From NCBI GenBank assembly GCA_028284865.1, contig JANQQV010000009.1, forward strand, positions 62,001 to 126,000: a stretch of DNA of 64,000 nt, in the 5' to 3' direction. This document shows, one piece after another, positions 7,876 to 59,746 of the stretch. The number at the start of each line of letters is the position of its first letter. Position 1 is the first letter of the stretch. The notes below the pieces were generated by a model. It worked only from the letters and a program-made list of their open reading frames with translations, made no database searches and had not been told where the DNA came from. Both the position numbers and the translations under genes were made by a program. This DNA comes from Rhodothermales bacterium (lineage in GTDB: Bacteria > Bacteroidota > Rhodothermia > Rhodothermales > UBA10348).

Positions 7876-9528
7876 CTATCGGGATCGTGCGGATACGCTG
7901 GTCAGGACGGTCCCGGATTGGTCGGCCATCTCGGAGTAGTACCGATCAAATCGCTTGGCTTCGAAATGCTCGTACTCACCCAGGTTTTGCGCCCAACGGA
8001 ACCCAATCGGCTGGTACCATAGCTCGACATCGACCGCAAATGGTCCGCCGTGTCCCGTTGTCGGGATCCGATAGCGTATCTGATCCGAACCGCCACGGAA
8101 ATCGGCGTCGGCCAAAGCATCTCCGTGGACAGCGACTCGCTCTTCCACCGTGGAAACCTCAAATCCCAAGGGAGGAATCCGATTGTCCTTCACATAATTC
8201 AGCGCAGTGAGCAGCCCCGTGGTGACGTTTCTATCAACATCCACCAAAATGGGCTCATAGATCTGGACCTGATCGGAAGACGTGATTTCAGCGTAATGCG
8301 GTTCGAAACCGCCATTCTCAAGATCGTTGTCATTGCCTTCAATGGATCCGTCGGGATTCAGTCGGCCCGATTCGAATACCACCTCACCCCGGCTGTCTCT
8401 CACCGTCACGTGCAGCCAGACTCGACGCGAAGGGTAAGCGGTGGGGAGTTTATGGCCAGTCTTGTTGGTCACAGAGACGTCAAAGGTGAGCGTCCCTTCA
8501 TCGAGCACGGGTTGGCTCAGCGCGAGCGCGGCCGAGTTCTCCTGCAGGTTTTCGATGGTCCGCATTGCTCCCAGGTTCATGGCCTGAGTGGTTGCTGGCA
8601 CGCCGAGTTCATCGCGGTATTTGCCAAGGATCTTCTGCATGAAGAAGTTGCCGCCCTTGAAGACATGCCGGGATATGTTTTCGCGTGGCGAACCCATCAC
8701 AGAGGAGACGGCCGCTTCGCCTTTAACCTCTGGCATATGGCAATCCTGACAGCTGGTGTTGTCTGCGTAGTCGCTGTAGAGCCACTCCAGATACGGTACC
8801 TGTTCGGGGAGTTCACCCAGCACTTCCCCTTCATCACCCAGGGTGTGGGTGATGAGCGTGTGACAGGATGCACAGAACGCTGATTCCTGGATGTGGGAGG
8901 ATTGTTCGGGGACGAAGCCTGATGCCGAGTGCATGATGCGCGTTTGGCCGGCGTCGACGTCGAAAGGACCATAAATCGGCCGCTCTCCCATCGGAGATGA
9001 TTCATCCACTTTGAAGTGCCCGACGAAGCTGTCTTCCAAGCCTTGACCTTCAGCGGTGATGGAATGGCAGGTGGTGCAGGAGACACCGTCAGCAGCCAGC
9101 TGATCAAGATGGGACTCAGCGTCCATTACAGGGATGTGGGCCAGGAATTGATCAGGCTGACCAGCCAAACGCTCCTGATAGGACGACATGGGCATGTGAC
9201 AGCGGGAGCACTCATTCTGAATGGTTTCGCTGGCCCAGGGGTGGTCCGTAATCTCGCGAATCACGGCTGCTTGCCAGTATGGGTCGCGAGCCGAGTTGGC
9301 CATCATCGAAGTTTGCCAGTCGAGTCCGATGGAGATGTCGTTTCCATCACTGTCCTGGAGTTGATTGTGGCAGCTCATGCAGGCATCCGATGTTTCGAAC
9401 AACGCATGGAGCTCAGCAATTTCACCTTCGAGCGGGCCGAGGGCGACCAGGGGCCTGGCCGGAGGCATGAGGATGGCAAAAGCGAACAACGTAATGGCAC
9501 TGACAATTGCAGGAATCCAGGTTTTCAT
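7876..9528 (-). CDS. Pentaheme c-type cytochrome, periplasmic
   Basis: About 550 aa from the ATG at 9528 (MKTWIPAIVSAITLFAF signal anchor); an upstream in-frame extension overlaps the neighbouring gene and looks spurious. Five heme-binding CxxCH motifs are visible in the N-terminal half: CMSCH, CSRCH, CTTCH, CASCH and CQDCH. The C-terminal half (from about residue 320) has no heme motif and looks like a beta-sandwich ('LTFDVSVTNKTGHKLPTAYPSRRVWLHVTV'). This arrangement occurs in cytochrome c554-like and other periplasmic electron carriers of Bacteroidota. The partner is unknown. Just 1 bp separates it from the broken cytochrome-barrel gene upstream, so they were one operon. Confidence 0.85.
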   Translation of the reverse strand: MKTWIPAIVSAITLFAFAILMPPARPLVALGPLEGEIAELHALFETSDACMSCHNQLQDSDGNDISIGLDWQTSMMANSARDPYWQAAVIREITDHPWASETIQNECSRCHMPMSSYQERLAGQPDQFLAHIPVMDAESHLDQLAADGVSCTTCHSITAEGQGLEDSFVGHFKVDESSPMGERPIYGPFDVDAGQTRIMHSASGFVPEQSSHIQESAFCASCHTLITHTLGDEGEVLGELPEQVPYLEWLYSDYADNTSCQDCHMPEVKGEAAVSSVMGSPRENISRHVFKGGNFFMQKILGKYRDELGVPATTQAMNLGAMRTIENLQENSAALALSQPVLDEGTLTFDVSVTNKTGHKLPTAYPSRRVWLHVTVRDSRGEVVFESGRLNPDGSIEGNDNDLENGGFEPHYAEITSSDQVQIYEPILVDVDRNVTTGLLTALNYVKDNRIPPLGFEVSTVEERVAVHGDALADADFRGGSDQIRYRIPTTGHGGPFAVDVELWYQPIGFRWAQNLGEYEHFEAKRFDRYYSEMADQSGTVLTSVSARSR

Positions 9529-9529
9529 A

Positions 9530-10697
9530 CTACCAGCCCTCCGCGAATCCGCCATCAAACCAGTCCCAAAGGAGATAGACCGCCCAGCGCTGGTTGCGGT
9601 CATCCTCTCCTAGAGGAAATGCATAGCCAACGTTCAACATGATGTGCTGCCTCGTATTCAGCGTGATCTGGACCTGGGGGACAAGATCCCAGTGAATATC
9701 CACGCCGGTTTCCATTTCGCGCTTGGCCAGGACTTCCATCATGGGCGAGAAGGTGCGACCCCAATTCGGGCGCGCAATGCTCTTTCCAATCACGCCTCTC
9801 CAGAATGCTTCGTTTTCAGCCTTGTCCTGAATGACGGGGAATTCCAAACCGGCCTGCGCCTGAATGAACGCGTCGGCAGGAAGGAGCTGGCCATAGGAGA
9901 CAAAAGGCTCAAGAATGGCCGTGCCTTTGCCAAATCCGAGTTCCTCATCGCCCGTAGGAAGCTTCACTTCGGCTACGGCGCTGAAAATGGTACCTCTGCG
10001 TAGATCGTGATAGAGTGCGCGCTTGAGACCGATGGCGATATCACCCATCGCCATTCCCCGCCACGAGTCCCCGACTTGCTAATGCCCGAAAGGGACAACG
10101 AATTCGATCTGGTTGCGTGGTCCGAATCGGGTCTCGTAGACGAATTTGGTCATGATGGCATCGTCTTCACCCGTTGTCGTCAGGACCGCTTCGTCTTCCG
10201 GGTAGGCTTTCTCCGTGAACAGGGCGCGAGGCAGATTGAGCTCTCCTCGAGGCCATCGGTCATCCGTACAGAATGTCCGGATGTGATCCATGATCAGTTG
10301 CAGCTGAGCCTCTGTCAGTGCATCTCCAAAGGCCGGCATACGTTCGGAAAACCCTCGTACCGGACCTCCCTCGTGAGCCACACCGATCCAGTCGCCGTCC
10401 GGTTCGCGGGAAGCAAACGCGCACTCAGAAAAATCTGGTATCGGTACGTCGAAGCCCAGCAAGGACGCATCGGTGCCCGTTCCGTCCGCCCCGTGGCACG
10501 TGGCACGTGGCGCAAGCCTGTCGATAGAGTTCGGCGCCGTCTTCGGCCCCGGCGCTGTGGGCCGACTGGACTTCCGAAGAATGTGAGGCAACGGTGATAT
10601 GAGCCGGAATGGGCTCCAGGGCATCGGACTGGGCTGCTGCGGATTGAGTGCCGGCTAAACACAAGCCGAGCAAAAGGAGGATGGTTGGTGTACGCAT
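9530..10697 (-). pseudogene. Cytochrome c / outer-membrane barrel fusion, broken by a frameshift and an amber stop
   Basis: Three open segments belong to one gene. Segment one (from ATG 10697) has a signal peptide (MRTPTILLLLGLCLAG) and reaches 'ELYRQACATCH', a cytochrome c heme motif, where a 7-bp tandem duplication (10493-10513) shifts the frame. The next segment continues as 'GADGTGTD...' to 'IEFVVPFGH', with cytochrome-like 'ERMPAFGDALTEAQL' and then 'FTEKAYPEDEAV'. A TAG at 10079-10081 follows. The same frame then runs on through 'QVGDSWRGMAMGDIAIGLK', 'AVAEVKLPTGDE' and 'WAVYLLWDWFDGGFAEGW' to TGA at 9530; this part resembles the MetA-pathway/phenol-degradation porin-like barrel. Removing 7 bp and reading through TAG would give about 386 residues. 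Sequencing error is possible, but two lesions favour a real pseudogene. Confidence 0.75.
10493..10513. repeat. 7-bp tandem repeat causing a frameshift
   Basis: GTGGCAC GTGGCAC GTGGCGC lie head to tail. With one copy of the 7-mer removed, the minus strand reads A-C-A-T-C-H-G-A-D-G-T-G, a normal cytochrome c heme site; with it present, the frame is lost right after CATCH. Confidence 0.9.
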
Positions 10698-10711: not shown

Positions 10712-10727
10712 ACTTGTAATTACAAGT
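10712..10727. promoter_or_regulatory. Perfect 16-bp palindrome (probable operator) before the cytochrome genes
   Basis: ACTTGTAATTACAAGT is its own reverse complement. It sits 15 bp upstream of the ATG of the broken cytochrome gene, in the intergenic region shared with the divergent cupredoxin gene. The TTGTAATTACAA core is the kind of site bound by MarR/OhrR- or TetR-type dimers; which protein binds is unknown. Confidence 0.6.
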
Positions 10728-10976: not shown

Positions 10977-11480
10977 ATGCGTACACTCTCCAACTCTTTC
11001 TTCGCGCTGCTTTTCGCCAGCCTTCTCATGGTCGGTTGTGGCGGCGAGTCCGCAGACACTGCTGATGCGGCTGCTGATGTCACCGAAGAAGCGGCTACCG
11101 ATGCCATCGTCATCGAAGCCAACGACATGCTTCAGTTCTCCGTTACGGAATTCTCCGTCACGGAAGGCGAAGAAGTCACCATCGTTCTCCAGAATGTCGG
11201 CCAGATGGCCAAGGAAATGGGCGGCCACAACCTGGTCATCCTGACCGAAGGTTCTGACCTCCAGGCATTCGGTATCGCTGCAGCAGGCGCTGCTGACACC
11301 GAGTACATTCCTGCAGACCTGGCTGACCAGGTATTCGCTGCAACGGCTCTTCTCGGCCCAGGCGAAGAATACACGCTGACGTTCACGGCTCCTGCAGCTG
11401 GCACCTACGAGTTCGTATGCTCGTTCCCGGGCCACTTCGGCACGATGCGCGGTGTCATGACGGTTGAAGCCGCCATGTAA
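10977..11480 (+). CDS. Cupredoxin (azurin-like) lipoprotein
   Basis: 167 aa. A lipoprotein signal peptide ends LLMVGC, then an acidic Ala/Asp/Thr linker, then a single type-1 copper domain. Copper ligands are visible: His in 'GGHNLVIL', and Cys, His and Met in 'CSFPGHFGTMRG'. The overall block layout (N-terminal 'QFSVTEFSVTEGEEVTIVLQNVG', C-terminal C-x4-H-x3-M) is that of azurin. It should carry electrons in the periplasm, membrane-tethered. It is divergent from the cytochrome genes and shares their upstream region, which fits a respiratory or redox role. A strong terminator follows. Confidence 0.9.
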   Translation: MRTLSNSFFALLFASLLMVGCGGESADTADAAADVTEEAATDAIVIEANDMLQFSVTEFSVTEGEEVTIVLQNVGQMAKEMGGHNLVILTEGSDLQAFGIAAAGAADTEYIPADLADQVFAATALLGPGEEYTLTFTAPAAGTYEFVCSFPGHFGTMRGVMTVEAAM

Positions 11481-11547
11481 TCAGCGGCTGCGATGCGGCA
11501 AAAGCTGCAAAGCGGCAAGGTTTCGCATTGACCTCGGTTGATGCGCA

Positions 11548-11580
11548 CGGGGCGGCGCCGACAGGCGCCGCCCCGTTTCT
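11548..11580 (+). terminator. Rho-independent terminator after the cupredoxin gene
   Basis: A 12-bp perfect stem CGGGGCGGCGCC / GGCGCCGCCCCG with a GACA loop, followed by TTTCT. It lies about 67 bp after the cupredoxin stop and before the next lipoprotein gene. Nothing else is seen in 11481-11712. Confidence 0.85.
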
Positions 11581-11712
11581 GTTTGGAGTCGTTTCTCCCA
11601 TCAGGATGGCTGGATTGTTCGCCTTCTCATCTTTCGCTTTTTCTGCGTAACGCGCGATCGTTCCGTTCGACCTATCTTTCGAACGGTTCGATTCACCACC
11701 CCACTTCTCGTC

Positions 11713-12192
11713 ATGTCCCGACTTTTTCTGCTCCTCGCTCTGATTCTGTTCACAAGTGCCTGTGCAACCGAGGGCACAGCCGAAACCGCTTCAGCCGAAT
11801 CCGAAGCAGCTGAAACACAAGGCATGGCGGACCTTCGTTCTGCTTCACCTGAAGGTGCGAGCATTTTCTTCGTCAATCTGGAAGACGGACAGACGGTGGA
11901 GAGCCCGTTCACGGTTGAATTCGGTCTGGAAGGAATGTCCGTCGTACCCGCAGGTACCGATGAGGAGTACTCGGGCCACCACCATCTCCTGATCAACGAG
12001 GACATGCTGCCGCCGATGAACATGCCTATTCCGGCAGACAGCACACACATCCACTACGGCCTGGGTCAGACCAGTACCGAATTGGACCTGCCAGCCGGTG
12101 AGCACACGCTCCAGATTATTCTCGGCAATCACCTGCACATCCCGCACGATCCTCCGGTCGTGAGCGAGAAGATCACCATCACGGTGCAGTAG
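11713..12192 (+). CDS. DUF4399 family lipoprotein
   Basis: 159 aa. The signal peptide ends with lipobox LFTSAC, followed by an Ala/Glu/Thr-rich spacer. The conserved block is 'FVNLEDGQTVESPFTVEFGLEGM', then 'GHHHLLIN' and 'LPAGEHTLQIILGNHLHIPHDPPV', the hallmarks of DUF4399 (a small periplasmic beta-sandwich of unknown function). The many His (GHHHL, HIHYG, NHLHIPH) would suit metal binding, though that is inference. It has its own spacing from the preceding terminator and runs convergent to hypE. Confidence 0.85.
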   Translation: MSRLFLLLALILFTSACATEGTAETASAESEAAETQGMADLRSASPEGASIFFVNLEDGQTVESPFTVEFGLEGMSVVPAGTDEEYSGHHHLLINEDMLPPMNMPIPADSTHIHYGLGQTSTELDLPAGEHTLQIILGNHLHIPHDPPVVSEKITITVQ

Positions 12193-12222: not shown

Positions 12223-13317
12223 TCAGCAGATGCGAGGGAGTTGTTCGCCGACCAGCATGTCGACGATACGCTGACCTCCAATGCCCGTGCGCATGGTCAC
12301 CATGCCCGCGGTCTGGCTTGTCACTGTTCCGATACGGACGGCGTGAGCGCCCAGCGTATCGGATTTCATGGCAGAAAGGACGGCCTCGCTCACTTCAGGA
12401 GCCACCACGGCAATGAGCTTGCCCTCGTTGGCTACGTGCAGAGGGTCGATGCCCAGGAATTCGCATGCACCCCGGACCGCTGGCAGGATGGGAATCGATC
12501 CTTCTTCCAGTTCGATGCCGACGCCTGCCGTTTCCGCGAACTCGTTCAGCGCCGCTGCCACGCCGCCGCGCGTTGGGTCTCGTAATGCGCGGACGCCCTC
12601 TCCGCCAACATCAAGCATGCGAGCAATCAGATGATTGAGCGCGGCTGAATCGGATGCGATGGGCATTTCGAATTGAAGGCCTTCGCGTTTGGAGAGGATC
12701 GTCATCCCGTGATCGGCTAACGTCCCACTGATCAGGACGTGATCGCCGACTCGTATCCGATCCGGACGCGGGCGAACAGGCTGTTCAAACACTCCAATGC
12801 CTGTGGTGTTGATAAACACCTTGTCGCCTTTGCCTTTGTCGACCACTTTGGTGTCTCCGGTGACAATCTGAACGCTTGCAATGGCTGCAGCATCGCGAAT
12901 CGATTCGACGATGCGCTTGAGGTCGACAAGTGAGAATCCCTCTTCCAGAATCATCCCGATGCTGAGGTAGCGGGGCGTCGCGCCACTCATGGCCACATCG
13001 TTGACGGTGCCATTCACGGCCAGATTTCCAATGTTGCCTCCTGGAAAAAAGATGGGATCGACTACGAATGAGTCCGTCGAGAAGGCCAGGTCCGAGGCAA
13101 CAGCGGGAAGAACAACGCTGTCTTGCAGGTCGTCCAAAAGCGGATTGCCAAAGGCCCAAACAAACAGATCTTGGATGAGCTCGCGAGACATCTGACCACC
13201 GCTGCCGTGCCCAAGCTGCACCGTATCGTGGTCCGAGATGGGCAGGGGGCAGGTACCAAACCCGGACGTGTTGATTTCGGTGTTTACATCCATTCCGTCT
13301 GATGGGAAGTTGGCCAT
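12223..13317 (-). CDS. hypE: Hydrogenase maturation protein HypE
   Basis: 364 aa from ATG 13317; the open frame extends further upstream only as an overlap with hypD. HypE dehydrates a carbamoylated C-terminal Cys to thiocyanate and passes cyanide to the iron of the [NiFe] cofactor. The C-terminus reads LPRIC with the essential terminal Cys. Other family blocks are 'LGHGSGGQMSRELI', 'FSTDSFVVDPIFFPGGNIG', 'VAMSGATPRYLS' and 'DPTRGGVAAALNE'. It is the last gene of the hydrogenase operon, 4 bp after hypD. Confidence 0.97.
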   Translation of the reverse strand: MANFPSDGMDVNTEINTSGFGTCPLPISDHDTVQLGHGSGGQMSRELIQDLFVWAFGNPLLDDLQDSVVLPAVASDLAFSTDSFVVDPIFFPGGNIGNLAVNGTVNDVAMSGATPRYLSIGMILEEGFSLVDLKRIVESIRDAAAIASVQIVTGDTKVVDKGKGDKVFINTTGIGVFEQPVRPRPDRIRVGDHVLISGTLADHGMTILSKREGLQFEMPIASDSAALNHLIARMLDVGGEGVRALRDPTRGGVAAALNEFAETAGVGIELEEGSIPILPAVRGACEFLGIDPLHVANEGKLIAVVAPEVSEAVLSAMKSDTLGAHAVRIGTVTSQTAGMVTMRTGIGGQRIVDMLVGEQLPRIC

Positions 13318-13321
13318 AGTG

Positions 13322-14440
13322 TTATTCGGACGGGCTTGGTGTTGCGGATTCTGGATGATGACGGTGATAGGCGTAGTAGGCGGCACATGCACCCTCCGAA
13401 GAGACCATCGTTGCCCCCAGCGGCGTTCTGGGCGTGCACTCCTTGCCAAAGGCGGGGCACTCGTAGGGCTTCTTGAGGCCCTGCAGGATGATGCCACTGA
13501 TGCACGCTTCCGGCTCATCCACGTCGATTTCCCCGATCGCGAAGCGCTTCTCAGCGTCAAATGCGGAAAAGGTATCCGAGAGGCGGAAGCCGGACAAGGG
13601 AATCTCGCCGATACCGCGCCACTTGCGATCCGATACCGTGAATACCTGGGCGATCAGGTCTCGTGCGGCGCGGTTGCCCTCGCGGGCAACCGCGCGGGCA
13701 TACTGGTTCTCGACTTCGTTGCGACCTTCTTCCAATTGCCGCACCGTCATCAGGACGCCTTCAAGGATGTCGACTGGCTCGAAGCCGGTTACGACGATAG
13801 GGACATCAAATTCGCGGCAGATCGGCTCGTATTCTTCCCAGCCCATGATTGTGCAGACATGTCCGGCTGCCAGGTATCCTTGAACCCGGTTCTGTTCGGA
13901 AGAAAGGAGCGCCTTCATCGCAGGGGGGACCAGGACGTGCGAAACGAGCATTGAGAAGTTTGAAAGCCCCAGTTGCCGAGCCTGCCAGGCTGCCATGGCG
14001 TTATTGGGTGCCGTGGTTTCGAATCCGACAGCGAAGAAAACAACTTCCTTTTCGGGGTTCTCTCGCGCCAGCCTCACCGCGTCGAGCGGGGAGTAGACGA
14101 CACGCACGTCGCCGCCTTCCGATTTGACCATGAAGAGGTCTTTTTCCGAGCCCGGGACGCGAAGCATATCGCCGAAGGAAGTGAATATCACCTCCGGGCG
14201 GGACGCGATGGCGATGGCACGGTCGATCAACTCCAGCGGTGTGACGCAGACCGGACACCCTGGACCATGCACCAGCTCGATATGGCTAGGCAGCAGTTGA
14301 TTGATGCCATTGCGGATGATGCTGTGGGTCTGACCGCCACAGATCTCCATGAGCGTCCATTCGCGCGTAGTGATCGCGTGGATTTCGTCCAGGATGGCTT
14401 TCGCAATGACCGGGTCGCGGAATTCGTCGAGGTACTTCAT
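13322..14440 (-). CDS. hypD: Hydrogenase maturation protein HypD
   Basis: 372 aa, normal length. HypD carries a [4Fe-4S] cluster and, with HypC, is the scaffold on which Fe(CN)2CO is built. Visible signatures are '[11 protein letters not shown]', '[13 protein letters not shown]' (redox Cys pair) and the C-terminal Cys set in '[20 protein letters not shown]' and '[22 protein letters not shown]'. Its ATG overlaps the hypC stop by 4 bp, consistent with coupled synthesis of two proteins that form a complex. Confidence 0.97.
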
Positions 14441-14763
14441 GACAAGCCCTCCCCGGTGCCTTGGTCCTTGGCCTTGGCATCGGCATCGGAATCAGCCTTC
14501 AAGGGCATGCCGAAGATGTCCTCGCCGTCTTCGGCCGCTCGCGCCACGATCTCGTCCCAGTGTTCAAGCGTTTTCCGCGCTTCCTCTTCGTTCACGCGAT
14601 TGATGGCGAAGCCGGCATGTACCAGGACGAATTCACCAATCTGGGGCTCTTCGATATAGGCCAGACAGGCCGTATTGGTCGTGCCTGCATAGTTGATCCG
14701 TCCCATGGACAGTCCGTTTTCCTCGTACAGCTCAACAACTTTGCCGGGAATGGCTAGACACAT
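14437..14763 (-). CDS. hypC: Hydrogenase maturation chaperone HypC
   Basis: 108 aa starting [14 protein letters not shown], the strict HypC/HybG start whose Cys2 binds the iron being assembled and the precursor large subunit. A middle '[25 protein letters not shown]' is also typical. A charged tail of about 20 residues beyond the usual end ('[17 protein letters not shown]') is not conserved. It overlaps hypF by 10 bp and hypD by 4 bp. Confidence 0.97.
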
Positions 14764-17198
14764 GGTATATCCTGTCTGGATTGATTCAAGGTCCTATTCG
14801 ATTCGTGCAGGCGCGCTGCTGCCGCGGCAACCTGGCCAAACGCAAGGCCGCCATCGTTGGCTGGAAGACGAGTGGGAAGGAGCACGTCCAACCCAGCCGC
14901 CTCCAGATTACGGACGACTTGTGTGAGCAGCGTCATGTTCTGGAAAACACCTCCGGACAGAACACACGTATCGATGTCTGATTCGGCAGCGCCGTGAACC
15001 ACTATTGCGGACAGTCGATGAGCCAATGATGCATGGAAACGCGCGGCGATGTCCTTAGCCGGGACTGAACGCTCCAAGTCCTTTAGCACCGCCTTGACCA
15101 GTTCATCAGTCTGTATCGCGGATTCGAACATGGACGCATTCGAGCGAACGTTTTCCCAGACTTCTGGCGATCCGCACCGTGCGAGGCTCTCTAACTCGAT
15201 AGCCGCCTGTCCCTCGTACGAGATGGCGTTTCGAACGCCAAGCAGCACAGAGACGCCGTCGAAAAGGCGACCTGCACTCGATGTCAGCGGCGCATTGACT
15301 CCTCGTGACATGACTCGGTCCAGCAGTCTCAGCTCTTCTGCGCTTCTATCCAGCACTTTGGTCGCCGGATGTTGAATCCAATCCTCACCCAGTAGCCTGA
15401 AGAGGAGGGCGGCACCAAGGCGCCAAGGTTCTTGAATGGCACGTTCGCCACCGGGGATTTGCATGTGCTGCAGGTGTCCAAGGCGCTCGCTCTCGCCAGC
15501 CGTGCCGACCAGTAGTTCACCACCCCAGATGGTGCCATCACTGCCGAATCCGGTCCCATCAAGGATTAACCCAATGGCAGGATCGCGATGGTCATGTTCA
15601 GCCAGAACGCCAGCAAAGTGTGCGTGATGGTGCTGAACTTGCTCAACAGGTAGTCCCGAGGACTTGGCCCATTTGGTAGACAGATAGTCTGGATGCCTGT
15701 CGCACACGACCAGTTCAGGCTCTACCTGCAGGATGGCACACAAATGCGCGACGGTATCTTCAAAGAACCCCAGCGCCAGCGGGTTGTCCAGATCGCCGAT
15801 GTGCTGACTCATCACGACCTCGCGACCACGCGCGACAGCTATCGTGTTCTTGAGCTGACCGCCCACCGCCAGAATGGGGACGGGTACCGGTTCCGCCAGT
15901 CGAATCGGTGTTGGAACGTATCCTCGCGAGCGGCGAATGGGGAAGGGGCCCTTCGGCCCCACACGAGTCACGGAATCGTCGCAGCGTTGAACAATATCCC
16001 GATTGTGGGTCAGTACTACATCCGCCAGCCTGATCGCGGACTCAGGATCGAAGCCATCAGCTTCCGTGATGATGGGTTCCTCCGCCAGATTCGCACTGGT
16101 CATGACGAGGGTCGCCCGAGGGCCACGCAGCAGCAGGTGATGAAGTGGCGCATACGGCAGCATCACGCCGAGCGTGCTTTGCCCCGGGGCGATTCCCGAA
16201 GCAAATGGACCGGCCTGTGACAGCGGTTCCAGTAGCACGATGGGGCGAGCAGGCTCCGTGAGCAGCTTGGCTTCAGCGGCAGAGACGTGGGCAAATTGCT
16301 TCACTTCCTCCAAATCGCGGGCCATTAGAGCGAATGGCTTGTCTGTACGGCGTTTTCGTCGACGCAATTCCGCTACAGCCTCCGTGTTGGTTGGGTCGAC
16401 GGCCAAGTGGAAGCCCCCAATGCCGCGAATGGCTACGATGCGGCCCGCGGCAAGTGCAGCCTGAGCGTGGGCCACGGGATCCACCACGTCTACCTCACGA
16501 CGATCCTCGATGATCGCAAGCCGCGGGCCGCACACCGGACATGCATTTGGCTGTGCGTGGAATCGGCGATCCAGCGGGTCATCGTATTCGTTCTGGCATT
16601 TCGGGCATTGCTCGAATTCGGACATGGAAGTGGATGGCCGATCGTATGGGAGGTGGCGAACGATCGTATAGCGCGGACCACAATTGGTGCAATTCAGGAA
16701 GGCATATCCGTTCCGCCGGTCACCAGAATCCATCAATTCAGCCAGACAGTCCGGGCACGTAGCGATATCGGGCGCAATCATCGTGTCTGCGGGCAAGTCC
16801 GAATCGCTGAGATCAATCGAGAACCCTTCGTCCGTATCGACCTGCGGTTCTCGAGAGCCGAGATGGTGACGGACCTCGGGGTCAAGAGCAACCCTCACGG
16901 GAGTACCAATCACAGGAGCACCAACCTCAAGAACGTCAATCTCACGAACCTCGATATCATGGATCGAAGACGGGCCCGGTGCGCCTGCTCTAAGACGGTC
17001 GGGAAACGCATCGACAGCAGATTCAGGACCCTGGATCTCGACCGTCACGCCGTGTCCATCGTTGCGCACCCATCCAGTCAGATCCAACGACCGCGCGATC
17101 CGGTAGACCGTCGGTCGGAAACCGACGCCCTGCACGATGCCCGTAACGACAATGCGTCGGCGGACGATCGGGTCTGATATGGTGGAAACGCGAGGCAT
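14754..17198 (-). CDS. hypF: Carbamoyltransferase HypF
   Basis: 814 aa, the usual length. Domains in order: an acylphosphatase-like domain ('GIVQGVGFRPTVYRIA', residues about 18-33), Zn-finger motifs ('CPDCLAEL', 'CTNCGPRYT', 'CPKCQNEY', 'CPVCGPRL', about 145-220), a YrdC-like nucleotide-binding domain ('AIRGIGGFHLA', about 260-430) and a Kae1-like C-terminal domain ('HHHAHFAGVLAEHD', 'GLILDGTGFGSDGTIWGGE', 'LSGGVFQN'). HypF makes carbamoyl-AMP from carbamoyl phosphate and transfers it to HypE, feeding the cyanide ligands. It lies between hypB and hypC in the operon. Confidence 0.97.
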   Translation of the reverse strand: MPRVSTISDPIVRRRIVVTGIVQGVGFRPTVYRIARSLDLTGWVRNDGHGVTVEIQGPESAVDAFPDRLRAGAPGPSSIHDIEVREIDVLEVGAPVIGTPVRVALDPEVRHHLGSREPQVDTDEGFSIDLSDSDLPADTMIAPDIATCPDCLAELMDSGDRRNGYAFLNCTNCGPRYTIVRHLPYDRPSTSMSEFEQCPKCQNEYDDPLDRRFHAQPNACPVCGPRLAIIEDRREVDVVDPVAHAQAALAAGRIVAIRGIGGFHLAVDPTNTEAVAELRRRKRRTDKPFALMARDLEEVKQFAHVSAAEAKLLTEPARPIVLLEPLSQAGPFASGIAPGQSTLGVMLPYAPLHHLLLRGPRATLVMTSANLAEEPIITEADGFDPESAIRLADVVLTHNRDIVQRCDDSVTRVGPKGPFPIRRSRGYVPTPIRLAEPVPVPILAVGGQLKNTIAVARGREVVMSQHIGDLDNPLALGFFEDTVAHLCAILQVEPELVVCDRHPDYLSTKWAKSSGLPVEQVQHHHAHFAGVLAEHDHRDPAIGLILDGTGFGSDGTIWGGELLVGTAGESERLGHLQHMQIPGGERAIQEPWRLGAALLFRLLGEDWIQHPATKVLDRSAEELRLLDRVMSRGVNAPLTSSAGRLFDGVSVLLGVRNAISYEGQAAIELESLARCGSPEVWENVRSNASMFESAIQTDELVKAVLKDLERSVPAKDIAARFHASLAHRLSAIVVHGAAESDIDTCVLSGGVFQNMTLLTQVVRNLEAAGLDVLLPTRLPANDGGLAFGQVAAAAARLHESNRTLNQSRQDIPCV

Positions 17199-17223
17199 CG
17201 AAACGTCTGAAGCTCACATCGAG

Positions 17224-17931
17224 TCAGCGTGCTTCCTCGACCGCCATGGACGCAAGCGACTCGCTGCCAGCAACGACTCCGCGCAGCCAATCATACCACG
17301 CATCGAGCCCTTCACCGGTCTGGCACGAGACCTCAAATATGCGGAGCCCGGGATTGATCGAAAGCGCGTTTTCGCGAACCCGTTCGATCGAGAAGTTTGA
17401 GTACTGGGCGAGGTCAGTCTTGTTGATGACCATGACGGAGGATCGCCGGAAGATTCCGGGATACTTCAAGGGCTTGTCATCACCCTCCGTGGTCGAGATC
17501 AACGCAATTTTCAGGTGTTCGCCCAGGTCGTAGGAGGAGGGACAAACCAGGTTGCCGACGTTTTCGATGAACATGATGTCGACCCCATCCAGATCGATCT
17601 CTTCCATGGCGGTACCCACCATGTGCGCCTCGAGGTGACATGCTCCGCCGGTCACGATGGGCCGCACGCGTTTGCCACCCGCAGCTATCAGTCGGTTCGC
17701 GTCGTTATCGGTCTGCACATCCCCGGCGACGAGGGCCATGTTGAGCTCATCGCCCAGCTCGCGAAGCGTGTGCTCCAGCAAACTGGTTTTTCCCGATCCT
17801 GGTGAGGACACGAGATTGAATGAGGCCACGCCTCTCTCCTCGAAGGTCTCGCGCAAGGCCGCAGCCACGCGGTCGTTCTCGGCCAGAACTTTCTGTCGGA
17901 ATTCGAACTTCTTCAGATTCAGGGTTGGCAT
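17224..17931 (-). CDS. hypB: Hydrogenase nickel-incorporation GTPase HypB
   Basis: 235 aa. SIMIBI GTPase motifs: P-loop 'SSPGSGKTSLLE', 'GDVQTDNDA', and 'NKTDLA' for guanine recognition. The metal site 'GGACHLEAHM' (Cys-His) and 'FIENVGNLVCPSSYDLGE' are typical of HypB. There is no His-rich N-terminal nickel-storage stretch, so it should act only in GTP-dependent nickel delivery with HypA, whose gene lies 74 bp upstream. Confidence 0.97.
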   Translation of the reverse strand: MPTLNLKKFEFRQKVLAENDRVAAALRETFEERGVASFNLVSSPGSGKTSLLEHTLRELGDELNMALVAGDVQTDNDANRLIAAGGKRVRPIVTGGACHLEAHMVGTAMEEIDLDGVDIMFIENVGNLVCPSSYDLGEHLKIALISTTEGDDKPLKYPGIFRRSSVMVINKTDLAQYSNFSIERVRENALSINPGLRIFEVSCQTGEGLDAWYDWLRGVVAGSESLASMAVEEAR

Positions 17932-18005
17932 GGTGTAGACCGGGTGTTGGGGTGTCTGGGACTCGGGGTGTCAGGTATTCAGATGCAGGGTATCCAGGGC
18001 GGGAA

Positions 18006-18365
18006 TCAGGATTGGACAGGCTGCTCGGCTACATCTACGGAAACGATATCGAGCTCGTAGCCGGATGTCACCGAAACATCGCTCGAGCCACATACAGAGC
18101 AAATGAATGCCAGCTCCTCGGTTGGGGCGGTGGTACCACACGTGGCGCAGGCCAGTGTGATCGGAAGTGATTCGATCTCAAGGGTACACGCATCCATACC
18201 AAACTCGCTCCGAAGGGCCTCAAACCCGAATACGAGTGAGTCATTATGGATTCCTGCGAGCGCACCGATCTGCAGGGAAATCGAGGAGATAGCTCCCCAT
18301 CCCTGCCGATCCTGCTCCCGCTGGACCGATTCGAGGATGCTTTGTGCAATGCTGAGTTCGTGCAT
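18006..18365 (-). CDS. hypA: Hydrogenase nickel metallochaperone HypA
   Basis: 119 aa starting MHELSIAQSILESV at ATG 18365; His2 of the invariant MHE start is the nickel ligand. Residues about 73-95 hold the structural zinc site, two CxxC pairs (CATC ... CSVC). The open frame continues upstream into the protease gene, but only this start gives the MHE terminus. It delivers nickel with HypB to the precursor large subunit. It lies 16 bp after the protease gene. Confidence 0.96.
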   Translation of the reverse strand: MHELSIAQSILESVQREQDRQGWGAISSISLQIGALAGIHNDSLVFGFEALRSEFGMDACTLEIESLPITLACATCGTTAPTEELAFICSVCGSSDVSVTSGYELDIVSVDVAEQPVQS

Positions 18366-18381
18366 GGTCAGTTCCCTCGGG

Positions 18382-18861
18382 TCAACTCGGTGTCGTTGGA
18401 GCATCGATGAGCGAGGCACAGGCATCCTCAACGGCTTCGACCAGCGCATCGAATTGGTCCTGAACCACGTCCGAAAGACCCTCTCCAGCCGAAAAATCAG
18501 CCCCTTCGACCCCAATCAGGATGACATGAGGGGGAAGCGAACCGAGGACGCGCATCATCTCAATGGCCTCAGCCACCGAGAACGCGTGAGTCGAGTAGTT
18601 GAAGAAATCAGACGGGATGGACTGATCGCTCGCGTCGAGTCTGTGGATCGTTCCCGCAGGCTGACCGGAATTGACGGCATCCACAACCACGGCAGCGAGG
18701 CGTCCTTCAAGTAATGACATCATGGCCGTCCCTTCGCCACTGCACTCAACGACGTGCATTTCGTCGGTGGTTCGACGAGACATCTCTCGCGCAGCCAGCA
18801 AGCCTACGGCGTCATCCCGTCGATATGGGTTGCCTACACCGATGAGCAGGATGTCAGCCAA
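18382..18861 (-). CDS. [NiFe]-hydrogenase large-subunit maturation protease (M52)
   Basis: 159 aa. Starts 'MADILLIGVGNPYRRDDAVGL', the M52 (HyaD/HycI) motif whose Asp/Glu-type residues contact nickel. It continues with 'VVVDAVNSGQPAGT' (second metal Asp) and 'FNYSTHAFSVAEAIEMM' (His ligand). It should clip the short tail after the C-terminal CxxH of the HyhL precursor once nickel is in place. It overlaps the nickel-permease gene by 8 bp. Confidence 0.95.
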   Translation of the reverse strand: MADILLIGVGNPYRRDDAVGLLAAREMSRRTTDEMHVVECSGEGTAMMSLLEGRLAAVVVDAVNSGQPAGTIHRLDASDQSIPSDFFNYSTHAFSVAEAIEMMRVLGSLPPHVILIGVEGADFSAGEGLSDVVQDQFDALVEAVEDACASLIDAPTTPS

Positions 18862-19459
18862 GGATCACCTCCGACATCTCGATCAGCAGCAATACGCCCA
18901 GGAGGATGGAGAGCCACCCAGCTAGCCGCTGGATGAGGCGTATCCAGCGTTCGCCAGAAAACTGGAAGGGCAGGCTCAATACCAGGGTAAACAGCCACAT
19001 GCCAAAGACATTGCCGATGGAAAAGGCTCCGATGTAGATCAAGGCACCGGCTGAGGAGTCCACCGTGGCCAGAACGAGAAGAAGAAGCGCTGCGCTGCCT
19101 GCCAGGCCATGGATGGCGCCAACACCGACGCTTGCCATCGCCTGATGCTCGGTTTCGTCCTGGACCGGACTGCGAAGCGCTCGTACACCCAGCACGATCA
19201 GCAGTACACCGACAATTCCTTCGAAGCCCGCTTCCAGACCCGTGGAAATTGTCATGTTCAGGAGGAGCAGCCCCATTCCCACAATGAGTAGCGTGGCAGC
19301 ATGGCCAATGCCCCAATAGAGGCCTATTCCGGCCGTTTTCCACCAGGATTCCTTCCGGCGGACCATGGAGGAGACCGCAACGATGTGGTCGGCGTCCAGG
19401 GCGTGGCGAAGTCCGAGTACGAATCCGCTGCCGACGGCAACGGTCAGAATGGCAAGCAT
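18854..19459 (-). CDS. Nickel/cobalt permease, NicO/UreH-like
   Basis: 201 aa and almost entirely hydrophobic, with about six transmembrane helices. The first helix pair contains 'GLRHALDADHIVAVSSM', the H-x4-D-H signature of the NiCoT/NicO nickel transporters. A second His/Ala-rich helix ('YWGIGHAATLLIVGMG') also matches, and 'GAIHGLAGSAALLLL' is the third conserved block. It is shorter than the classic NiCoT (about 350 aa) and closer to the UreH/NicO group. Position inside the hydrogenase operon points to nickel uptake for the enzyme. Confidence 0.9.
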   Translation of the reverse strand: MLAILTVAVGSGFVLGLRHALDADHIVAVSSMVRRKESWWKTAGIGLYWGIGHAATLLIVGMGLLLLNMTISTGLEAGFEGIVGVLLIVLGVRALRSPVQDETEHQAMASVGVGAIHGLAGSAALLLLVLATVDSSAGALIYIGAFSIGNVFGMWLFTLVLSLPFQFSGERWIRLIQRLAGWLSILLGVLLLIEMSEVILG

Positions 19460-19513
19460 GGTCTCAATAAGTCAGTTCCGGGGTGAAAGAACGTACGTTT
19501 CAGGCTAGTGGTG

Positions 19514-20818
19514 TCAGGAGCGTTCGATATTCAGTTTCAGAAAATGGCAGGAGCACGAAATACACGGGTCGTAGTTGCGGATGCCCTGTTCGCACTGCCA
19601 CTGCAGCTCGTCGTCAGGCAGATGGAGATTCTCCTGGACGAAGTGGCGCATATCCAGCTCCATCGAAGGCTGGTTTTGCGAAGTTGGGGGAATGATGCGG
19701 GCTGATTTCACCAGGCCGTCTGAGCCGATGGCATAGTGATGCCAGCAGATTCCGCGTGGCGCCTCGGTACATCCAGCGCCTTCGCCATCAACCGGCTCAA
19801 CGTCGACATACGCGTTGCCTGGGCCCAGATAGCGGTCGCAGACGGCGATGGCTGTGTCACACGCATGGATCAGCTCCACGCTGCGGATGAGGATGCTCTT
19901 GAACGGGTTGAAGCAGGTTTCTTCGAGTCCGTTGGCCAGCGCCAGCTCCTGGATTTCGCCGGAAAGGCGATCGAAGTTCAAATTGTAGCGGGCCATGGGG
20001 CCGACCAGGTACGGTCCGCGCTCCTTCACGCCAGCGTGCAGCGAGGTCGACTGCGGTACGTGGAATTCCTCGAAGTGCTCAAGGAAGTCCTCGATCGCGA
20101 TATCAATGCCCTTGTTGGACACGATGCGACCACTGAGGATGGCATACTCCTCTGGATGCCGCATGGCGACTAGCTCGTAGTCCCGCTGGAAGTCAGGAAT
20201 ATCGAGACCGGCGCAGAACTGCAGCGTCTTGATGGATGCCTCTTTCGCCCACTCCAGCTCTGCTTTCAGCGCTTCCATTTCGCTGATCTCCGGTAGTCGA
20301 TAGAATCCTCCAACCTTGACGTTGATCGGGTGAATTTCCCGGCCGCCAAGCAGATTCATGATCTCATTGCCGGCTTTCTTCAGACGCAAGCCCATGTTGA
20401 CCACTTCGGGGTGGTCTTTAGCCATGGTAATGGCATCCTGATAGCCCATGAAGTCAGGCGCATGCAGCATGAACACATGAAGCGCATGGCTTTCGATCCA
20501 CTCACCGCAGTAAATCAGATGGCGGAGGTCTCGCAGCTGGCCATTGACCGCCACGCCACAAGCCGTCTCCATGGCCTGGGCGGATCCCATCTGGTACGCA
20601 ATCGGGCAGATACCGCAGATCCGGGCTGTGATATCGGGTACTTCCCGGAAGGAGCGACCTCGCAGGAAGGCTTCGAAGAATCGCGGAGGCTCAAAGATGT
20701 TGAGTTTGGCATCCTCGACCTGTCCGTCCTTGACCTTGATGTAGAGAGCGCCTTCGCCTTCGACTCGGGCAAGGTAATCGACCTGGATGGTGCGTGAGTC
20801 CTTAGCTTCCATTGGCAT
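19514..20818 (-). CDS. hyhL: Group 3b [NiFe]-hydrogenase large subunit HyhL
   Basis: 434 aa. This is the catalytic subunit holding the NiFe(CN)2CO site. The L1 motif RICGICP is at about residue 65, with Tyr where other groups usually have His (PIAYQ), as in group 3b. The L2 motif DPCISCSCH is at about 417-425. After that His come nine residues (FLKLNIERS), the peptide the M52 protease removes. Cytosolic: no signal or Tat motif. The start overlaps hyhS by up to 17 bp; an ATG at 20812 is also possible. With HyhBGS it should couple H2 and NAD(P)(H). Confidence 0.96.
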
Positions 20819-21608
20819 GCTTGCGGCTTTCGTCTCGGAAGGCTTCCGATTCGGTGGTGAAGAGGCGGAAGAGGCGGGTGATTTCGGCAGATGTCAGTCC
20901 CAGAATCGAGAATCGCTCTGCAATCGACGCAGTGTTGGGCGTTTCATTGGGCCCGTAGCAGCCGAAGCATCCCCGGTGATACGAAGGACACAGCGCGTTG
21001 CAGCCGGCGTGTGTTACCGGTCCCAGGCAGGCTTCGCCCTTCGAGACCATGACGCATGTCGTTCCCCGGCTCTTGCATTCAATGCAGACGGAGTGGGCCT
21101 TGATCAACGGGCGCCGATTGTTCAGCGTAGCGCTGATCAGTTCGATGAGCTGCGCCTTATTGATGGGGCACCCATTCAATTCAAAATCGACCTTGACGTG
21201 GTCAGAGATCGGTGTCGACGTCCGAAGCGTGCTGATGTACTCCGGATGCGCATAGACCACGTTCACGAATTCGTTGACGTTGCTGTAGTTGCGCAGCGCC
21301 TGGATCCCACCTGCTGTTGCGCATGCCCCGATCGTGATGAGCGTTTTGGTCTGCTTTCGGATCTCGTGGATTCGCTCTGCATCGTGCAGAGTAGTAATGG
21401 AACCCTCAATGAGCGAAATGTCATACGGGCCATCGATCACAGCTCGCGTCGCCTCTGGGAAGTAGGCAATCTGGATGGCTTCGGCCACGGCCAATAGTTC
21501 ATCTTCGCAATCGAGCAGGCTCAGTTGGCAGCCGTCACACGAGGCGAACTTGAAGACAGCCACTTTTGGCCGGGCGCGGACGGGCGCATTGTTCGTTCGA
21601 ACTTCCAT
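20802..21608 (-). CDS. hyhS: Group 3b [NiFe]-hydrogenase small subunit HyhS
   Basis: 268 aa from ATG 21608; the frame stays open upstream inside hyhG, but the sequence there is not hydrogenase-like. The iron-sulfur ligands are visible: '[16 protein letters not shown]' (proximal cluster), '[13 protein letters not shown]', '[15 protein letters not shown]', then a Cys-rich C-terminal part '[13 protein letters not shown]', '[28 protein letters not shown]' for the further [4Fe-4S] clusters. It has no Tat signal, so it is cytosolic and not of the uptake type. It wires the NiFe site to HyhG and HyhB. Confidence 0.96.
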
Positions 21609-21616
21609 GGTGCCCC

Positions 21617-22486
21617 TCACAGTTGTCGGATGTTGAAGAGGTGCTCGACCTTGTCGAACCGATAAACGGGCCCATCTTTGCAGACGAATTCCGTTCCCCA
21701 CTGACAGTGACCGCATCGGCCGATGGCACATTGCATGTTGCGCTCCATCGAGACGTAGATCTGATCGTTCGTGACGCCCAGGCGGTTCATATTCATGATC
21801 ACGAAGTGCATCATGATCTCCGGACCACAAACGAATGCGGCTACTTTTTCGGGCTCGAAACCAGCTCCGGTGATCATCGTGGTGATGACGCCAACATGAC
21901 CGCGCCAGGACCGGTCAGCCCGGTCAACCGTGACCCAGACTTCCACATCCAGATTGGACTTGTATTGGCCCAGTTCTTCGGGGTAGAGGATGTCTTCGGG
22001 GGTACGGGCGCCATAGAGGATGATGAACCGGCCATAGTCATCGCGATTCTCCATGACGTGGCGGATGACAGGACGAATCGGTGCCAGCCCGATTCCTCCA
22101 GCTGCGATGACGATATCCTTACCCTTGCAAGATTCGATCGGCCAGTACGTCCCGAACGGGCCGCGAAGTCCGACCTTGTCGCCAACGTTGAGACCGCTCA
22201 AGGCGGACGTAACGACACCGACATCCCGGATGGTATGAACGATGTTCTTGCTCGTGCCGGGCGTACCGCTGATGGAGATCGGGACTTCGCCCGTTCCGAA
22301 CGTGTACAGCATGTTGAATTGGCCCGGAGCGAAGGTGAATTCGGATCCGTTCTCGAATTCCAGTTCGATCGTGAACGTATCGGCTGTTTCCTGCTTGCGG
22401 TCCACGATGCGGGTTTTTACAGGCAACATGGGGTCGCCGGCGCCGTGGACAACGGGAGGGAGCGGAGATAGGGAGGTATCAAGCAT
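21617..22486 (-). CDS. hyhG: Hydrogenase FAD/NAD(P)-binding diaphorase subunit HyhG
   Basis: 289 aa. A ferredoxin-reductase fold: FAD-binding barrel ('[22 protein letters not shown]', about residues 51-75), then a NAD(P)-binding domain ('[17 protein letters not shown]', '[15 protein letters not shown]', '[11 protein letters not shown]'), and a C-terminal Cys cluster ('[27 protein letters not shown]') that binds [2Fe-2S] as in dihydroorotate dehydrogenase PyrK. It moves electrons between NAD(P)H and the HyhSL core. Overlaps the cyclic-nucleotide gene by 8 bp. Confidence 0.95.
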
Positions 22487-22934
22487 AGAGCTCGGCCAGT
22501 TGGAGACGGGTTGCCATGAGGCGCTCGACGACCAGTTTCATGAACCGGCGGGTGATGTTGAATCCGAAATCCGGATCCGCGTCACACTTATCTCGGACGC
22601 ATTGCGCATTGAAAGCAAATACTGAGACGTCATCCATTACCCGGACGTCGTAGCGGACGCTGAGTGGAGGATTGAGCCAGCTCCAGCCAATAATGCCTCC
22701 TTCGCCCACGGTTTGCACTACGTAGGTTCTGTTTCCGGCATCCATTTCGACGGCCACGCGGCCGGAGCGGATCAGGTAAAACTCATCGGCTTCCTTTCCC
22801 ATGAGCATCATGAATTCGCCAGCCTTGTATCGTTTGTTTTGCGCACAGCCAGCGATGAAGTCGACGTGATCGCGATCCATGCCCTCAAAGAAGGGATGAA
22901 CGACCATCAGATCGGATAAAGGTTTGTTTTTCAT
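22479..22934 (-). CDS. Stand-alone cyclic-nucleotide-binding domain protein of the hydrogenase operon
   Basis: 151 aa. The whole length is one Crp-type cNMP-binding beta-roll: 'FFEGMDRDHVDFIAGCAQNKRYKAGEFMMLMG', 'FYLIRSGRVAVEM', 'GEGGIIGWSWLNPP' (in place of the phosphate-binding GE-x2-Alal loop), then one long helix to the end. It has no DNA-binding helix-turn-helix, so it is not an ordinary transcription factor. It is locked into the operon by overlaps on both sides (ATGA with hyhB, 8 bp with hyhG), which suggests a regulatory or assembly partner of the hydrogenase itself. Confidence 0.9.
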   Translation of the reverse strand: MKNKPLSDLMVVHPFFEGMDRDHVDFIAGCAQNKRYKAGEFMMLMGKEADEFYLIRSGRVAVEMDAGNRTYVVQTVGEGGIIGWSWLNPPLSVRYDVRVMDDVSVFAFNAQCVRDKCDADPDFGFNITRRFMKLVVERLMATRLQLAELYA

Positions 22935-57383: not shown

Positions 57384-58511
57384 GTGGAACCACTAAGCTT
57401 TTATTCATTGTCTAAAGATGTTCTCAATCTCATATACAATGGCGGGGTTGCATTGGCCAAAAAGGTGCGCGAAAGGAAGACAGATGATTGGAGATCAGAT
57501 ATTGCGAATCCACGCAGATTGAAACTGCTTCGGAGCTACTACTCAGAGAATGATAGCTCATCGTGGTACCATTTCAAGATTGGTGCAGTGGAAGGGAAAG
57601 TGCCGTTTTTGTCTCGCCCAGAGTGGTTCGGAAAGGATAAGTACCTACTAAAGCACACCAAAAGCAGTGTAGCGCGGAGTCGCCACCATCAGTCTGTATT
57701 GGATATTAGAGAAAGGATGGGAGTTAGGTTGACCAATGACCCACTATTCACCTTCACGGCTTTGCAGGAGGAGACAGATTCCCTCACCATATTTTGCTCA
57801 GATTGCAACTACTTTGACTTCGTTTCGGAGTGTGGACTAATTGAGGACGAGCTGACAGCAAATGTTTCAGATCCTCACCATGGATATGCTATTCGAGACA
57901 ATCTTGCTAAGGACCTGGGTACTTTGCTAGAAAACCCAAGATCAACTGTTGGTATGGGGGTTCACACAGCAGTGTTCTTTAGAAGAAAAGGAGAATGGAG
58001 GATGTTGCGCCAAACACGGTCAGAAGAGACGATATCCTGGCCAAACGCTTTCAGCACCGTACCCAACTTTGCTTTCCAAGCAATGTTTGGTCGGGAGGAG
58101 GAATTCGATCTTCAACACAACTTTCTTAGGGAATACGGAGAGGAGTTATTCGATTTTGAGGAGCTTCGTGGAAGAGATACTAGGATTGAATACGATTGGT
58201 TTTACCACCAGCCAGAAATAAAGAACCTAGTTGAGACGTTAGAGAAAGGAGGAGCGTCGTTTTTTCAGACTGGTTTTGGGTTCGATGCACTCAATGGTGA
58301 GTTTAATATTACCAGCGCACTTGTTGTGTCAGATGAGGAAGCCTGGACTGAGACTATTGGCGATCAGCAATGGTCGTGGGAGTCCAATGATATAGATTCA
58401 CTTTCCATTGCCGAAGTTGTAGAGTGTATTGCCTCGAACTACAAGGAGATGCCATTCGCCAGTGTTGCGGCGATAGACCAAGGTCTTAAGAGTATTTCAC
58501 TCGACGTTTAG
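57384..58511 (+). CDS. Unknown protein with a Nudix-like C-terminal domain
   Basis: 375 aa from ATG 57384, low in G+C. An N-terminal amphipathic/hydrophobic helix ('DVLNLIYNGGVALAKKV', about 11-28) precedes a region that includes 'CNYFDFVSECGLIEDEL'. Residues about 195-255 contain 'MGVHTAVFFRRKGEWRMLRQ' and 'FDLQHNFLREYGEELFDFEEL'. The 'N--REYgEELf---E' helix preceded by 'VP--aFQ' recalls Nudix-like domains of actinobacterial regulators; this is a memory-based hint. No HTH is seen. It runs convergent with the SIR2-like gene, 26 bp apart. Confidence 0.45.
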   Translation: MEPLSFYSLSKDVLNLIYNGGVALAKKVRERKTDDWRSDIANPRRLKLLRSYYSENDSSSWYHFKIGAVEGKVPFLSRPEWFGKDKYLLKHTKSSVARSRHHQSVLDIRERMGVRLTNDPLFTFTALQEETDSLTIFCSDCNYFDFVSECGLIEDELTANVSDPHHGYAIRDNLAKDLGTLLENPRSTVGMGVHTAVFFRRKGEWRMLRQTRSEETISWPNAFSTVPNFAFQAMFGREEEFDLQHNFLREYGEELFDFEELRGRDTRIEYDWFYHQPEIKNLVETLEKGGASFFQTGFGFDALNGEFNITSALVVSDEEAWTETIGDQQWSWESNDIDSLSIAEVVECIASNYKEMPFASVAAIDQGLKSISLDV

Positions 58512-58537
58512 CTTCTGCATTTCATCGTTATCGGATA

Positions 58538-59746
58538 TCAGAGTAGTAAATCCTCGATAGGCCGATGTTCGTCACACATGAATCTTTCCAAGCAAAAGAC
58601 CTGTCCGTTATGGTCGAGATTCAAGAGGGCAAGCTGTGCGGAGGTACAGTCCTCGTCATATATGTATAGTTTTCGATCTGCATCTTCGTTTAGCCAGGTT
58701 TGAACTCTATTGACTACTCCACGATCGTTCCAGGAAAATCCCGTCACTATCAAGGCAATACTCATGTCGAGTCTAGCCAGAAAAGCCGACCAGTGGTCAG
58801 CGTAAACTCCCGATTGATATGCCGCCTCCTTTGTGCCACCGGTGAGGAAGGACGGCCCATGAGGAATCCCAATGGAGTTTCCTCTGCTGTCTACTAAGTG
58901 GTTTATGTCCTTTGAGAGTGGCCGGCAAAGGTCGTCGTAAAAATTGCCCCCTCTGGAGACCCGGGTTCTCCACCAATCAATCGACCCATGGAGCTTCAGA
59001 AGGACGATCTCCTCATTGTGATGGGGGTTTTCCTCCAGTCCTTTAACTAGCGCGATGCGATCATACCACAACACTTGTCCATCAGGAAGCCTGAAATTAA
59101 AGCCATCTGTGTAAGGCTTTCGGCTCCACTTTGGTATCCGTCTATTGTGATCTCTGAGTTTGCTGTCAAGTAGGTTTTCGAGGACCTGGTCGTGATTGAG
59201 AGTTGCGATCGTAAGTCGCTTGACCCGCTCTGAATCGATGGCAGATTCCAACAACTGAAATCCCCTTGGAGCAATCTCAATTCGTCCGAGGAAGTGATAG
59301 ACCGCGTCAGAAATCAACTTGCAGACCCGAGAATATGCCTGTTCTGGATTGAATCGTTCATTTTGGGCGCAAAGCCCTTCCACTACATCGTTCAGTTGAT
59401 TTAAATAAAGTCCGACCGGGGGACTGATAAAAGACCCTTTAACTCGAGTCGATAAGTGATGGGCGAAGACGTATACATCCTCGTAGTTCGCCTTTCTCGG
59501 AGCATCCTGCCCTCCCGTTGCCGCAACCGACTCTGTGTCACAGATCTTTAGGAGCTGGTCAAATAGCTGCTTGGTTAAAAAACCGATTCCCGGACCAAAT
59601 GGGCTGCATTCGTCGGATAGGCCGGGAGTAAACTGTTCTGAATCAAAGCAATAGTCCGCTTCCCGAATGGTATCAGTCAATTCAAGGGCGAGCGGAAAAC
59701 CTGATTCACGAGAAGCACCCGCTCCCAAGAGAAATGACACGTTCAT
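58538..59746 (-). CDS. SIR2-like domain protein (defence-type)
   Basis: 402 aa. 'MNVSFLLGAGASRESGFPLALELTD' is the N-terminal NAD-binding loop, then 'TIATLNHDQVLENLL' (Asn/Asp of the catalytic region, about residue 180), 'IVLLKLHGSIDWWR' with the catalytic His (about 250), and 'IALIVTGFSWND' (about 330). This is the stand-alone SIR2-like group found in bacterial defence loci, where such domains degrade NAD+; that function is not shown here. Low G+C. Convergent with the Nudix-like gene. Confidence 0.8.
   Translation of the reverse strand: MNVSFLLGAGASRESGFPLALELTDTIREADYCFDSEQFTPGLSDECSPFGPGIGFLTKQLFDQLLKICDTESVAATGGQDAPRKANYEDVYVFAHHLSTRVKGSFISPPVGLYLNQLNDVVEGLCAQNERFNPEQAYSRVCKLISDAVYHFLGRIEIAPRGFQLLESAIDSERVKRLTIATLNHDQVLENLLDSKLRDHNRRIPKWSRKPYTDGFNFRLPDGQVLWYDRIALVKGLEENPHHNEEIVLLKLHGSIDWWRTRVSRGGNFYDDLCRPLSKDINHLVDSRGNSIGIPHGPSFLTGGTKEAAYQSGVYADHWSAFLARLDMSIALIVTGFSWNDRGVVNRVQTWLNEDADRKLYIYDEDCTSAQLALLNLDHNGQVFCLERFMCDEHRPIEDLLL

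Follow-up and report, generated by a model that had tools for sequence, protein, structure and literature searches.

Cyc2 is a fused cytochrome-porin in which an N-terminal cytochrome domain with a single CXXCH motif is joined to an outer-membrane barrel, an arrangement shared by the intact relatives of the gene described here; its barrel has 16 strands and the motif AXPXFAR[Q/K][T/Y] lies upstream of CXXCH (PMC8406198). In Geobacter, the porin-like protein ExtI and the five-heme cytochrome ExtKL are encoded together, as are the two proteins considered below, and loss of ExtI reduces the reduction of selenite and tellurite (PMC5877670). Natural loss of a heme domain has been described for CcoP of Neisseria meningitidis, from which the third heme domain was removed by a CAG to TAG change (PMC2924362).

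The present analysis concerns a window of 64,000 nucleotides (the whole stretch of DNA that was analysed) from a Rhodothermales draft genome, where a gene for a cytochrome c-barrel protein (cytbar) lies upstream of a gene for a pentaheme cytochrome c and is interrupted by two lesions. Cytbar is most probably a recent pseudogene, whose function would have been lost. The features of the locus are the following.

9530-10697, minus strand: broken cytochrome c-barrel gene (cytbar), recognised by homology to 56 intact single-frame relatives; predicted ancestral architecture: signal peptide, then a monoheme cytochrome c domain, then an outer-membrane barrel of 12 strands, with the helical heme domain and the strands seen in the AlphaFold2 model of L033, an intact relative
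10425-10697, minus strand: first ORF piece, with the signal peptide and CATCH followed by 24 out-of-frame residues
10079-10624, minus strand: second ORF piece, which covers what remains of the heme domain, leads into the barrel and stops at TAG
9530-10054, minus strand: third ORF piece, with the bulk of the barrel and no signal peptide
10492-10511, minus strand: period-7 tract (GCCACGT)2GCCACG in the codons of the heme motif, where an extra 7-bp unit shifts the frame
10079-10081, minus strand: in-frame amber stop at a variable barrel position (a loop region after an early strand)
7876-9528, minus strand: intact downstream gene for a pentaheme cytochrome c (partner gene), 550 residues with five CXXCH
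10712-10727, no strand assigned: perfect, operator-like 16-bp palindrome ACTTGTAATTACAAGT, 14 bases upstream of the cytbar ATG

A preliminary description of this DNA had taken the three minus-strand ORFs for parts of one ancestral protein, which is borne out by homology to intact relatives: in genome searches cytbar shows 44-63% identity over at least 300 residues to more than 50 loci, a similarity that lies far beyond chance. Seven strong relatives were found among 148 genomes, with two further ones at 34-35% identity, and a species-level collection gave 49 loci; one locus, that of the cultured relative Rhodohalobacter sulfatireducens (L003 = L033; contig NZ_JAKLWS010000019.1), where cytbar and the pentaheme gene are both intact, is common to both sets. 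All 56 aligned homologues are single open frames with CXXCH and neither lesion occurs in any of them, so that, relative to intact orthologues, the duplication and the TAG are frame-disrupting lesions of the kind that defines a pseudogene. A two-reading-frame structure in relatives, which the same description had named as evidence against inactivation, is likewise absent from these 56 homologues. The G+C content by codon position in the cytbar pieces resembles that of adjacent genes. The gene is absent from all six same-genus genomes searched, and a search of the 3.48-Mb, 28-contig host genome with the joined protein matched only 10697-9530, the sole copy of the barrel gene found there.

The first lesion affects the heme motif itself. 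The 20-bp tract at 10511-10492 reads GCCACGT-GCCACGT-GCCACG, and the reported 7-bp duplication is present as two tandem copies of GTGCCAC (minus strand, 10506-10493) inside the heme-motif codons; skipping one copy restores CATCHGADGTG, after which the frame meets a single TAG at 10081-10079. This stop had been placed correctly, but the end of the frame had been given as TGA at 9530, where the terminal stop (9532-9530) is in fact TAG (last codon pair TGG TAG). No other tract in the window has at least 12 consecutive matches at a 7-base offset, and the 20-mer was found once across 245 genomes of the class, at the cytbar locus only. With one unit removed, cytbar would hold a 6-base period-7 match (GCCACG) in its CATCHG codons, whereas the match in the heme codons of homologues reaches 5 bases at most; a pre-existing repeat of this length favours slipped-strand duplication as the mechanism. 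Mispairing between the direct repeats GCCACG, spaced by 7 bp, would thus have added a 7-bp unit and shifted the frame, and a separate point change would have created the TAG in a variable barrel loop, where the alignment column of the 56 homologues is occupied by R, S, Q, N, K, E and other residues. After both lesions no single product would contain the signal peptide, the complete heme domain and the barrel.

The tract might instead work as a slippage-driven, reversible switch or be polymorphic in the population, with an in-frame number of units in some cells, since slippage could remove a unit from nearly three 7-bp copies just as it had added one. This is improbable: even with the frame regained the product would end at the TAG, and the homologues, with at most 5 bases of period-7 match, lack the tract and offer no hint that a contingency locus is conserved here. 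Still less probable, to the point of being very unlikely, is the production of full-length protein by programmed frameshifting combined with stop readthrough. Although the frames are otherwise intact and their residues conserved, such recoding needs two events, neither of which is used by any of the 56 homologues; by eye there is no recognisable slippery heptamer at the junction, and TAG serves as a normal stop in this genome. Reassignment of the amber codon was rejected because the partner gene and cytbar itself both terminate in TAG.

Read across its lesions, cytbar retains 79 of the 81 family positions with a conservation of 90% or more, as intact genes do, and its identity lies 0.042 above the family trend when set against that of the partner gene (+0.042, second highest of 51). 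Faster drift of the broken gene was looked for and not seen, its divergence being no quicker than that of the neighbouring partner gene. The retention of conserved residues and the above-trend identity indicate either selection until recently or a gene that is intact in the cell but misread in the assembly; for a true lesion, the conserved residues and the lack of divergence faster than the neighbour make the inactivation recent. An assembly or consensus error, by which one or both lesions would be false, is the one serious rival to a recent pseudogene, and has a low though real probability. It would account for the lack of decay beyond the two lesions, and the genome (3.48 Mb) is a draft of 28 contigs, in which consensus can fail at repeat tracts. 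On the other hand, the two lesions, some 410 bp from each other in the same gene, are of different types, an informal look at the surrounding ORF map revealed no further gene that is obviously split, and the assembly has a completeness of 97.7% and a contamination of 0.07%. To our knowledge a 7-bp non-homopolymer duplication is not a typical long-read indel, and this was also counted against an error.

Under the preferred reading of a recent pseudogene, the intact pentaheme gene has lost its upstream partner, as the preliminary description had stated. Synteny and the single barrel copy support this: a barrel gene followed by a pentaheme gene occurs in 53 of 55 distinct loci and, with no second barrel copy in the genome, the pentaheme gene is a newly orphaned partner. 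Its start codon lies one base past the cytbar stop and has a separate GGAGG nine bases before it; with this ribosome-binding site kept, the pentaheme cytochrome may continue to be produced in the absence of its partner. The two genes overlap in 35 of the 54 pairs measured (start codons chosen by rule), which suggests that their translation is coupled. No third gene is conserved beside the pair across phyla, where the flanks differ. Two gemmatimonadete loci (L038 and L063) have an intact cytochrome-barrel gene and no pentaheme gene in the downstream DNA present (2.5 and 1.1 kb), and at a further locus in Gemmatimonadota (L034:6956-10342) the pentaheme ORF has about 1,100 residues and is possibly fused with a further domain. 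In the partner-gene tree the window sequence is placed with an acidobacterial sequence; as both are long branches, this placement speaks neither for nor against an origin by transfer.

The nature of the lost protein can be approached through its relatives. The AlphaFold2 model of the intact R. sulfatireducens protein (pLDDT 79.5) combines a helical heme domain with 12 strands, and the family consensus ends in DWFDGGFFxGW; an aromatic terminal residue is usual in outer-membrane barrels. The reading of cytbar as a c-type heme domain followed by a MetA-type barrel holds up through the 12-strand fold and the Pfam profile Phenol_MetA_deg, matched by 28 of 39 family members, while the barrel piece in the window scores 17.1 bits, below the 22-bit cut-off. 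With both a profile match and a 12-strand fold, the barrel part of the family groups with the PF13557/COG4313 channels. A barrel of 12 strands is probably too narrow for a multiheme wire of the kind formed by MtrA in MtrB, and we infer that it would instead pass a small substrate or ion, while the tethered heme and the pentaheme protein would swap electrons in the periplasm. The intact gene would encode a 12-strand barrel of the outer membrane, joined to a monoheme cytochrome c domain in the periplasm, and this protein would work with the downstream pentaheme cytochrome.

A clue to function is provided by the palindrome upstream of cytbar. The form ACTTGTNATNACAAGT (ACTTGT-NATN-ACAAGT), whose NATN centre was picked after the first sites had been seen, occurs at 27 sites in 16 of 27 family genomes, with none in the reversed control. 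In the host genome itself, ACTTGTN4ACAAGT with one mismatch is not in excess (4 sites against 9 in the reversed control). The sites (10712-10727 in the window; L102, L103, L104 and L122-L145) include 24 in other genomes, which were judged by their nearest downstream ORFs, with types assigned on the copies of those genes in the present genome. About 11 of the 24 lie before YeeE/YedE-type genes for sulfur transport, after which comes a metallo-beta-lactamase-rhodanese (persulfide-dioxygenase-like) gene; three lie before a type III sulfide:quinone-reductase-like gene, about four before a GntR/UTRA regulator, which in two cases adjoins a FadL-type protein, and three before a dehydrogenase E1 gene. 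One such GntR/UTRA protein is encoded at L104:3416-4201. Another near-site in the host genome precedes a sulfide:quinone-reductase-like gene adjoining a PhsA-like molybdoenzyme. As far as sequence can tell, the family-wide palindrome probably marks a sulfur regulon, and the simplest reading is that a GntR-type regulator would bind the promoters of sulfur genes as well as its own. The cytbar operon, which shares the palindrome, would have answered to this regulator, and this suggests a sulfur-linked role for it. None of the homologous loci of other groups has ACTTGTN4ACAAGT at fewer than three mismatches, so the operator clue speaks for this lineage only.

Other genes surround the broken operon. 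Hydrogenase maturation and structural genes adjoin it on the minus strand (12223-22934); among them HypF (14754-17198) was confirmed by NCBIfam, and HypD/HypE-like and large-subunit-like ORFs were recognised by eye. A divergent cupredoxin gene and a DUF4399 gene (10989-12192, plus strand) point away from the operon. Farther along the window, two ORFs at 57384-59746 have a lower third-position G+C than the rest and were possibly acquired recently; one of them has, by eye, a SIR2-like start (LLGAGASRESG).

The intact two-gene module is of more interest than the pseudogene, which is ordinary. By sequence comparison the pair is kept together in Rhodothermota/Balneolota, Acidobacteriota, Gemmatimonadota, Latescibacterota, Planctomycetota and proteobacterial metagenome-assembled genomes. 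It seems little described, no description having been found in a search of the open-licence literature. We consider it possible, rather than likely, that in these phyla the module is an undescribed outer-membrane redox unit for sulfur or other chalcogens, which in the present lineage was recruited to a sulfur regulon of the GntR/HutC type before slippage in its heme codons turned it off. The close pairing of a cytochrome-barrel with a pentaheme cytochrome in many uncultured phyla gives the locus its wider value, and an operator common with sulfide and thiosulfate genes is a first clue to a testable function. The first lesion has a clear probable mechanism, as the codons of a heme c motif can themselves contain a short direct repeat at which 7 bp are easily duplicated, and the probable natural loss of one partner allows one to ask whether the pentaheme protein works alone.

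Among described systems, the closest folds were sought with comparisons that reach the listed families only. The barrel fold is like that of FapF (PDB 5o65_A; VIA-align Z 23.6, 2.5 A, 219 residues), with a cytochrome c domain standing in place of the FapF N-terminal region, and like that of the COG4313 channel (PDB 4rl8_C; VIA-align Z 21.3, 2.8 A, 214 residues). The predicted structure of the partner protein (pLDDT 88.9) resembles that of pentaheme cytochrome c552 from Thermochromatium tepidum (PDB 5ze8; Z 25.6, 2.8 A, 350 residues) at just 22% identity, and its five CXXCH together with this predicted fold place it among cytochromes of that type.

ExtI, unlike cytbar, is without a heme motif. 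The partner protein scores 58.1 bits against the ExtKL model (NCBIfam NF040886), far under the curated cut-off of 250, for which reason identity with ExtKL was rejected; it is weakly similar to MccSep (PDB 9wt8), and the selenocysteine position in the C-terminal domain of ExtKL and MccSep aligns with a Tyr in its GHKLPTAYP. Identity of the cytbar family with Cyc2 was rejected as well, since the L033 model has 12 strands instead of 16 and the family consensus before CXXCH is GxxLYxxA in place of the AXPXFAR motif. The family also differs from Cyc2 in its cbb3/c6-like class I domain and in its pairing with a pentaheme cytochrome.

The inactivation had been considered rare to see, a view that does not hold: recent loss of a heme domain by nonsense or frameshift mutation is ordinary, and CcoP of N. 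meningitidis provides the precedent (PMC2924362). In CcoP as in cytbar, a cytochrome c domain is lost through one premature TAG in one lineage while relatives are intact. The two cases differ in what is left, as the di-heme remainder of CcoP is still functional (PMC2924362), whereas in cytbar the frameshift falls within the sole heme motif and the barrel is lost as well, through the TAG.
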